In this document: one piece after another, positions 44,517-49,035 of the stretch | Numbering within the stretch: position 1 is the first letter of the stretch | Layout: the number at the start of each line of letters is the position of its first letter | Source of the DNA: Halorussus gelatinilyticus | GTDB lineage: Archaea > Halobacteriota > Halobacteria > Halobacteriales > Haladaptataceae | Direction: 5' to 3' | Assembly: GCF_023238445.1 (NCBI RefSeq) | Contig: NZ_CP096658.1 | Location: 1,488,001 to 1,552,000, forward strand | DNA: 64,000 nucleotides | Translations under genes and position numbers: made by a program | Notes under the pieces: model-generated | What the model was told of the DNA's origin: nothing | Seen by the model: only the letters and a program-made list of their open reading frames with translations | The model's database searches: none

Positions 44517-46619
44517 CTACTTTTCTAACCACTGGTTAGCTAACACTAACTCACCATCGATAATCAGGGGCGAATACGGATTATCGTCGTAGGCGTCTAA
44601 CATCCGTTCTTTGGTAGACTCGAAGTGGTACGGCCCGGTAGAGAGAAAACGCGGGCCGACTTCCAGATACGTTCCAGAGACACTCCCGATGGCATGTTCC
44701 CGCGTTGGATACGCAAATGCGGTCAACGAAAGCGGTGGTTCGTCGGAGTCCTCGAATTTGTACATTAGCGGGACGATATCGGCGCTCGGCGCCAGCGTGA
44801 ATCCGGCGTCGCCGACCGCGATGTATCGGGTCCCGATGAACGTCGCCTCTCGCGTGATGGCGAGCGCGCCTCCGATGCTGAATCCCGCCTGGAACAGTTT
44901 CGCCAGCGTCTCGCCGAGTTCGACGGCCGCGGAGTTACCGACGTTACCGAGACTCACGATGCCGCCGTGACACCCGGCCTCGACCAGCGCGACGCCCTGA
45001 TTGTGCGACCGACAGGCGTTGAGTAGGAACGCGCGCATCCCGACCTCGTCGAGGGTCCGGGCGTCCAGCACGCCGTCCGAACACTCGAAGCCTCGGCCGT
45101 CGATGTGACCGACGTAGTGAAAGAGGTCGGTCGGAGTCCGGAGCAAGTCCTCCAGTTCGTCGGTCGTCACGTTGAAGTGGACGGTCGGGTCGAACGAGAT
45201 GGTGTCGCGGGGACCGTACACCTCCGCGACCGCGTCCCACTCCTCGCGCATCTCCTCGTCGTTGCAGACGACAGTGATCTCGATCACGTCGTCGGAGGTT
45301 CCCGAAGACTCGTATCGATACGCCTCCGGGAGGACTTTCGTCCCGCGGACCGGCGTCCCGTCGCCGACCCACGCGAGTTCGAGGGCGTCGTCGTGGTCGG
45401 GCATCTGGACGTACTCCTCGACGGGCGGGACGCCGCGCCGTGCCGCGGCGTCCCGCTCGCTCTCGGGTCGCTCGTCCGAATCGCCGGGCGAGGGCGTGCG
45501 CTTGAAGCCCTCGATGGCGTCGCGGGTCTCGCGCATCTCGTCGGTCTCGTCGTAGGTCGGCCGGGGCGGCGTCCGCAGAATCGAGAAGTCGTTGACGAGG
45601 TACGGGAGCGCCTCGACGTTCTCCGGGTCCGGGCGGACGTACGCGACGCGGTGCCACGACGGCATCGCCTCGGCCACGGTCTCGTAGGGAATCGAGAAAT
45701 AGGTCGATAGTTGCTCGCCCAGCGGCGCGTCGTACAGCGCCGCGAAGTCGACGTCCACCAGCGATTCGAGTCGGTTCCGGCCGGCGAGTTCGATGGGGTA
45801 GTAGCCTTCGGTCCGCGTGACGCAGTCGAGGAAGAACGCCTGTTTCAGCGTCCGAACAACGTCGTCTTCGAAGCCCTCGCCGGCGTCGAAACGGCGTTCG
45901 AACCCGCCGACCGTCAGGCGCGGCGTCTCGCCGGCCACGAGGTCGGCCCCGAAGTAGTAGGAGAGCGGCGCGGCCGCGTAGATGGCGTCGTACGCCGGCG
46001 GCACCTCGACGGTCGCTCCGGTGGCCGGGACCGCGAGGTCGTCGGGCACGTCGAGTTCGTCGCCGCGTTCGATGCGGGGCGGGTGGCCCCGGAGCGTGGG
46101 CCACGACCGCTCGCAGGTGGTCGTCTTCAGGACCGACCCGAGCGTCGAGACGGCACTCATCACGTCGTGCGGGTCGTCGGTCGTCGTCACCGTCGCGGCC
46201 GGTGACTTGTGGAACGACCGCGCGCCGACCTCGACCGTCGTCTCGCGGTCGAACGCGATTCGCATCGATTTGGTACTCGATTCGATGCGGAGTCCGGCCT
46301 CCGCCCGGAGGTAGAGTTTGATGGGTGCGCTCAGGTCCACGATGTAGGTGCCGGGCGAGAACTCCGCGGACGCGTCGTGACCGAGGTCGGCCAGTACCTC
46401 GCCGTCGGCGTCTCTGACGTACGACATGACGATGTACGGGAGGACCAACTCGCTGGTCTCGACCCGGCAGGCGGAGCTGACGGGGAACCGGAACGAGTCG
46501 GGGTCGGCGGGCGTCGGTTCGACCGGGTTCGGCGTCGAGAACGTGAACCGACGGGTCTCGATGGGGTCCACGACCTCGAATCCTCCCTCGTCGTCGAGCG
46601 TGTCGAACGTCGGTTTCAT
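44517..46619 (-). CDS. CHAT-domain (caspase-like) protease
   Basis: A 700-residue protein. The N-terminal 170 residues are beta-rich and the middle is mixed. The C-terminal CHAT-type caspase-fold domain spans about 430-625. The catalytic dyad is H505 (FHYVGHIDGRG) and C536 (FLLNACRSHNQGV), followed by GGIVSLGNVGNSAA. CHAT proteases cut other proteins in bacterial and archaeal defence or signalling. No known effector such as a gasdermin is next to it. A convergent 45-residue membrane micro-ORF lies 8 bases beyond the stop. The function of this family in haloarchaea is unknown. Confidence 0.85.
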   Translation of the reverse strand: MKPTFDTLDDEGGFEVVDPIETRRFTFSTPNPVEPTPADPDSFRFPVSSACRVETSELVLPYIVMSYVRDADGEVLADLGHDASAEFSPGTYIVDLSAPIKLYLRAEAGLRIESSTKSMRIAFDRETTVEVGARSFHKSPAATVTTTDDPHDVMSAVSTLGSVLKTTTCERSWPTLRGHPPRIERGDELDVPDDLAVPATGATVEVPPAYDAIYAAAPLSYYFGADLVAGETPRLTVGGFERRFDAGEGFEDDVVRTLKQAFFLDCVTRTEGYYPIELAGRNRLESLVDVDFAALYDAPLGEQLSTYFSIPYETVAEAMPSWHRVAYVRPDPENVEALPYLVNDFSILRTPPRPTYDETDEMRETRDAIEGFKRTPSPGDSDERPESERDAAARRGVPPVEEYVQMPDHDDALELAWVGDGTPVRGTKVLPEAYRYESSGTSDDVIEITVVCNDEEMREEWDAVAEVYGPRDTISFDPTVHFNVTTDELEDLLRTPTDLFHYVGHIDGRGFECSDGVLDARTLDEVGMRAFLLNACRSHNQGVALVEAGCHGGIVSLGNVGNSAAVELGETLAKLFQAGFSIGGALAITREATFIGTRYIAVGDAGFTLAPSADIVPLMYKFEDSDEPPLSLTAFAYPTREHAIGSVSGTYLEVGPRFLSTGPYHFESTKERMLDAYDDNPYSPLIIDGELVLANQWLEK

Positions 46620-48284: not shown

Positions 48285-48552
48285 TCCGCTGGCAAAACGT
48301 TGATGAAAAAACACGGCGGTCGTCCCGCCACTCGCTTCGCTCGTTACGGTCCTCCCTTGGTCCGCTCGCTCACGTCCGTTCGCTCGCGGTCAATGACTGA
48401 TGTGAACCGCGACCGTACTGCCACGCAACCGGTAGGTAATCGAGTCGAGCAACCGAACTCTCACCGTTGAGTCCTGCATGTCGACAGTCCGACTCGGCGC
48501 GTTTCCGTGTCGGTCCACCGCGCGAGAGGGATGTATCTTCAGTGGAAATACT

Positions 48553-48560
48553 GTTGTGTC
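48553..48560. repeat. MITE target-site duplication, left copy
   Basis: GTTGTGTC, identical to 48793-48800. The duplicated 8 bases show that the insertion is recent enough for the sequence to be undecayed. Confidence 0.85.
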
Positions 48561-48792
48561 GGCACTGTCTAGTTAAGCAAACCTCGAACAAACAGGGAGT
48601 ATAGCTCCTCTGCAACCGTTGTTGAACGAGGTGTCTTACTGCGTCTTTGTTGAGAGAGTTGGTGAGAGTGGCGAATTCGTGTCGCTCATGGCTCACCGCG
48701 GCGCCGTCTCAGAACCTAGACACCGTTCTCAGATTATCTACGACTCGTCTATCGCCCCACCGTCTGGCGGTTCCGCTTATCTAGACAGTGCC
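48561..48792. mobile_element. 232-bp IS6-type MITE
   Basis: Terminal inverted repeats are GGCACTGTCTAGTTAAGC (48561-48578) and the complement of GGCACTGTCTAGATAAGC (48775-48792), 17 of 18 matching. Both sides are flanked by a perfect 8-base direct repeat GTTGTGTC (48553-48560 and 48793-48800). The repeat ends and 8-bp target size match IS6-family haloarchaeal elements (ISH14/ISH15-like). The inside (about 196 bases) encodes no transposase, so it is a non-autonomous miniature element moved in trans. Confidence 0.9.
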
Positions 48793-48819
48793 GTTGTGTC
48801 GGTCGTGTCAACGTGAAAT

Positions 48820-49035
48820 ATGAGCAAAACGAGCCAGTTGTACCGTCGCCTCGACGAGTGGATGCGGAACCTATCCCGCGTCGAGTTCGCTTCTCTCGCT
48901 GGCCTCACGTCCACTGTGGCCGTGCTTATCGTTGGCGCGCTGTTTGGCGGTGAATTAGTGACAGTTCAGGCAGTCACGATGGGTCTTACGATAGCCGTCG
49001 TCTATTATCTCTTCAACCCCAACGAGCAGGAGTGA
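48820..49035 (+). CDS. Small two-TM membrane protein, hypothetical
   Basis: A 71-residue protein (MSKTSQLYRRLDEW) with two hydrophobic segments (about residues 24-42 and 48-63) and a short charged tail ending NPNEQE. The MITE ends only 28 bases before its ATG, so the insertion lies inside the likely promoter and may alter expression. No family is known to me. Confidence 0.6.
   Translation: MSKTSQLYRRLDEWMRNLSRVEFASLAGLTSTVAVLIVGALFGGELVTVQAVTMGLTIAVVYYLFNPNEQE

Follow-up and report, generated by a model that had tools for sequence, protein, structure and literature searches.

A 232-bp element with IS6-type ends in Halorussus, and its relatives of near-constant length across haloarchaea

The window analysed here, a 64-kb stretch of DNA, corresponds to positions 1488001-1552000 of a 3.67-Mb contig (genome G000) from the genus Halorussus. 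A 232-bp element lies in it, 27 bp upstream of the start codon of a small gene, and is referred to below as M1 (Table 1). A repeat search of the window resolved its ends as 19-nt arms that are 95% complementary; with terminal inverted repeats matching at 17 of 18 positions and no transposase gene, M1 has the composition of a MITE. The preliminary description of this DNA had proposed such an element, with a perfect 8-bp duplication, and the sequence reads so, at confirmed coordinates. Elsewhere in the window, a 700-aa protein (44520-46619, minus strand) has a sub-threshold match to CHAT peptidase (E=0.0009, below the curated cut-off).

Table 1. Features of the M1 locus (window coordinates), and other MITE copies and IS6-family element of the same genome (contig coordinates)
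Feature	Coordinates	Strand	Evidence or remarks
Upstream half of split conserved block, CAGTGGAAATACT	48540..48552	+	Alignment; also conserved in G013 and G014
Target site duplication GTTGTGTC, left copy	48553..48560	.	Single copy in G013 and G014 empty sites
232-bp MITE, copy M1 of five in genome	48561..48792	+	100% identical to M2, G000:1563568-1563799; flanked by GTTGTGTC twice
Left terminal inverted repeat GGCACTGTCTAGTTAAGC	48561..48578	+	Repeat search, tip-motif search
Conserved subterminal block, element positions 21-50	48581..48610	+	~1 bit column information, 43-member alignment
Conserved central motif GAGTGGCGAATTCGTGTCGCTCAT	48666..48689	+	43-member alignment
Conserved right subterminal block, element positions ~191-215	48751..48775	+	Family alignment
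Right terminal inverted repeat GGCACTGTCTAGATAAGC, as read on - strand	48775..48792	-	17/18 to left repeat
Target site duplication GTTGTGTC, right copy	48793..48800	.	Single copy in G013 and G014 empty sites
Downstream remainder of split conserved block, GGTCGTG	48801..48807	+	Alignment
Small gene, 71 aa, hydrophobic, no Pfam match	48820..49035	+	Orthologues 94% (G013) and 77% (G014) identical
MITE copy M2	1563568-1563799 (contig)		Flanked by AGAGCGGC/CGAGCGGC
MITE copy M3			Flanked by CGATAGGG twice
MITE copy M4			Flanked by GATACTAA twice
MITE copy M5			Flanked by AATATTAT twice
IS6-family insertion sequence, 732 bp	783041-783772 (contig)		Tips GGCACTGTCTAGTTAAGG and GGCACTGTCTAGTTTTCC; 8-bp duplication CGTCGACT

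A search of the genome for further copies, as the preliminary description had suggested, returned four copies beyond M1, each exactly 232 bp long and each at an unrelated site, with different flanks and duplications. M2, 27 kb away, is identical to M1; M3 and M4 form a nearly identical pair, and M5 stands alone, the three types being 66-69% identical. The 8-bp duplications are perfect around M1, M3, M4 and M5, and match at 7 of 8 positions around M2. The flanks of M1, M3, M4 and M5 are relatively AT-rich, with 41-57% GC within 100 bp versus mostly 60-70% over 1 kb.

The insertion of M1 is demonstrated by two Halorussus relatives, G013 and G014, in which the aligned flanks continue across the site without a break and contain exactly one GTTGTGTC, the empty site that the preliminary description had called for. 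Flank identity to G013 is about 86-90%, and as that genome has the empty site, M1 inserted after the two lineages diverged. Recent movement is suggested by M2, which is identical to M1; together with the perfect duplication and the empty sites, this identity bears out the earlier proposal that M1 is a genuine and fairly recent insertion. No clean empty site emerged for M2 or M5: in G005 the two M2 flanks enclose a different, longer segment, and the flanks of M5 were not found in seven relatives. An 8-bp repeat and inverted ends could in principle meet by coincidence in ordinary intergenic DNA. The probability of this is negligible: the tip motif, at up to three mismatches, occurs at two places in the 64 kb, both of them M1 ends, whereas dinucleotide shuffles average only 0.04 occurrences, and a chance origin is further refuted by the four additional copies and by the empty sites.

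M1 inserted within a block, CAGTGGAAAYACW-GTTGTGTC-GGTCGTG, that is conserved in all three genomes (its own, G013 and G014). Since the element splits this block and ends so close to the start codon of the gene at 48820, it may alter expression of that gene.

The preliminary description had recognised an 8-bp duplication as the size typical of IS6, and had proposed a search for a full-length IS6 element with the same ends. The genome contains one such element, itself flanked by an 8-bp duplication, and published accounts agree that IS6 elements make duplications of this size (PMC7986276). Its transposase is an intact open frame of 227 codons that matches the NCBIfam IS6 model NF033587 (E=1.5e-57) and is the only protein in the genome to match Pfam DDE_Tnp_IS240 (E=3.5e-11). 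The tip GGCACTGTCTAG is common to the MITE, to this insertion sequence and to the consensus of 36 haloarchaeal IS6 elements. The insertion sequence and the MITE share their tips only, with 12 identical nucleotides, and 17 of 18 on the left side. We therefore regard M1, with high confidence, as a non-autonomous IS6-type MITE that probably owed its mobility to an IS6-family transposase acting in trans, its insertion duplicating 8 bp. Both the involvement of the transposase encoded at 783041-783772 and the route of mobilisation are what we infer from sequence: an IS6-family DDE transposase, such as this one, would recognise the shared GGCACTGTCTAG tips and move the MITE in trans, duplicating an 8-bp target, which at M1 was GTTGTGTC. 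IS6 elements such as IS26 transpose replicatively through a cointegrate, from which a simple insertion arises only after resolution by homologous recombination, the course described for IS26 (PMC6807381); if haloarchaeal IS6 elements act like IS26, the donor of a simple chromosomal insertion would have to lie on a different molecule, and a resolution step would have to follow.

Common tips and common 8-bp duplications would also be expected if M1 were an ordinary IS6 element that had lost its interior, that is, a recent remnant of an insertion sequence and not a member of an independent MITE lineage. Apparent internal-deletion derivatives do exist in Haloferax massiliensis, where two elements of 318-319 bp (L099, 4479-4797, and L108, 4305-4622) combine IS6 ends with a transposase-like interior. 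The MITE interiors, however, show no clear similarity to the 36 sampled haloarchaeal IS6 elements: six of the seven members tested score no better than shuffled sequences, and the interior of L103 is marginal, with a score of 35 against a shuffle maximum of 34. Members of the MITE's own family, on the other hand, have homologous interiors even in different genera. An origin from IS6 through internal deletion is thus disfavoured, and we consider it very improbable for M1.

A search with the exact tips in one genome per species returned 95 stretches, nearly all haloarchaeal. Where the ends pair, two main sizes stand out, about 740-745 bp, corresponding to insertion sequences, and 230-232 bp, corresponding to MITEs. 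The shorter class is present in Halorussus, Haladaptatus, Natrialba, Natrinema, Haloterrigena and Natronococcus. A sequence-only profile built from 15 members matched 51 of the 392 genomes of the order; these represent 20 of 95 genera and each contain between one and six matches. About 20 distinct copies, including M1 and its siblings, carry exact 8-bp duplications. In a plasmid collection, the search gave partial matches only, in Halorussus pelagicus and Halosolutus. An IS6 transposase is encoded in 46 of the 51 genomes with family matches versus 249 of the 341 without (Fisher one-sided p=0.004, in a test that ignores the relatedness of genomes). With an IS6 transposase encoded in 295 of the order's 392 genomes, such enzymes are common, and this co-occurrence is weak evidence for a partnership. 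No IS6 transposase was detected in five genomes with family matches, four of which have partial or weak matches only; the full-length copy in such a genome (L139, in G331) has no duplication.

Prokaryotic MITEs are usually regarded as short-lived deletion products. The family to which M1 belongs is unusual in combining a near-constant length with extensive sequence drift across haloarchaea: copies with intact duplications measure 230-232 bp, and odd lengths (197, 210, 211, 224 and 228 bp) occur among copies without duplications. Among 43 distinct members, the 581 distant pairs (more than 40% of sites differing; mean difference 48%) are separated on average by 1.8 indel events and by 1.5 bp in length, values to be read with the knowledge that a full-length profile supplied most members, with only those of 220-240 bp retained, and that the aligner tends to open few gaps between sequences of equal length. 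For comparison, the intergenic DNA around M1 has accumulated 41 substitutions and 9 indels relative to G013, a control that consists of this single locus. A tip-pattern search that used neither the interior nor a length filter in the 220-240 range also recovered duplication-bearing copies of 230-232 bp. Internal spacing is regular too, the central motif starting at position 111-114 in all 43 members and the right block lying 34 bp from the right end in 41 of them. Within the genome, GAGTGGCGAATTCGTGTCGCTCAT at up to one mismatch occurs in the five MITE copies only.

Selection on length and spacing is the likely explanation for the fixed 230-232 bp. The fuller reading, in which these elements form one old, independently evolving non-autonomous haloarchaeal lineage whose length and motif spacing are selected for mobility by IS6 transposases, is one that we put forward tentatively, at slightly less than even chances. 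The fixed length and spaced internal blocks probably reflect cis-acting needs for mobilisation, for instance a site bound by a protein or the way in which the two ends are arranged in the synapse; in the fuller reading, the central motif, for example, could be a site for a host protein or for the transposase, or could aid the resolution of replicative IS6 cointegrates.

Length and internal blocks maintained at about 50% identity, and in the case of M1 a position just upstream of a gene, might instead indicate that the 232-bp unit is kept for a host function, as a small RNA, a peptide or a regulatory cassette, with mobility being secondary. A coding role was rejected, since stops occur in almost every frame of every member and no open frame is shared among 16 relatives, a result that also upholds the earlier statement that M1 has no internal transposase. 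A structured RNA was rejected as well. The whole element folds better than shuffled sequences (z = -4.4) because of its terminal repeats; once these are removed, the interior is no more stably folded than shuffled sequences (z -0.27 and -0.53), RNAalifold gave no covariation support in the family, and an Rfam search found no match for the element. The copies, moreover, occupy different sites, and those lacking duplications vary in length. A primary host function thus appears improbable, and we retain selection for mobility as the tentative explanation of the constrained length.

M1 fits a kind of element already known in haloarchaea, the MITE that shares only its tips with a transposon. The MITEs of Haloquadratum (HqIRS) have only tips in common with their parent transposon and are moved in trans (PMC3119063), and ISH2, MITEHsal1 and MITEHsal2 of Halobacterium are likewise non-autonomous (PMC10264941). 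All are described as tip-sharing and trans-moved, and differ from the 232-bp M1 in size where stated, ISH2, which uses ISH8, being about 520 bp and MITEHsal2 411-413 bp. For the IS6 family itself, a review counts two MITEs, of 227 and 336 bp (PMC7986276), and Harmer and Hall name two, MITEBth2 and MITEHarch3 (PMC6807381). Compared by description only, MITEBth2 and MITEHarch3, both in ISFinder and the latter from a haloarchaeon, resemble M1 in combining IS6-type ends with the absence of a transposase. The haloarchaeal IS6 elements ISH17, ISHbo1 and ISHarch4, of 743-745 bp with 8-bp duplications (PMC6807381), fall in the size class of the full insertion sequences found here (732-745 bp) and share their GG tips and 8-bp duplication; unlike the MITE, they encode a transposase. 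In the literature, we found no report of the 230-232 bp family, its breadth or its constant length. The kind of element is known, and what is worth following is the family's fixed length and spaced motifs. Beyond the preliminary description, the present analysis places M1 in what may be an old, length-constrained family, and shows that the insertion interrupts a conserved block immediately before a small gene. With a family spread over 20 genera whose length stays within about 2 bp at roughly half identity, a requirement of IS6 transposition for internal sites or set spacing becomes testable, and the family also bears on how IS6 cointegrates with such short elements are resolved.

Other arrangements with the same type of ends were observed during the survey. 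The same tips delimit a second group of MITEs, 201-202 bp long (L029, 540-740; L090, 7249-7450; L193-L195), which are 59-81% identical to each other where distinct. In Halorussus pelagicus (L009, 978-1728), exactly 8 bp separate a 228-bp family member from the end of another IS6-ended element. Finally, three neighbouring pairs of IS6-ended elements (L043, 5582-7945; L096, 2435-4347; L019, 5150-7050) each carry one 8-bp duplication, at the outer flanks only (CTGTAGTT, TTAATGCC and TCCCTAAA, respectively), the pattern that IS26-like pseudo-compound structures in haloarchaea would be expected to show.
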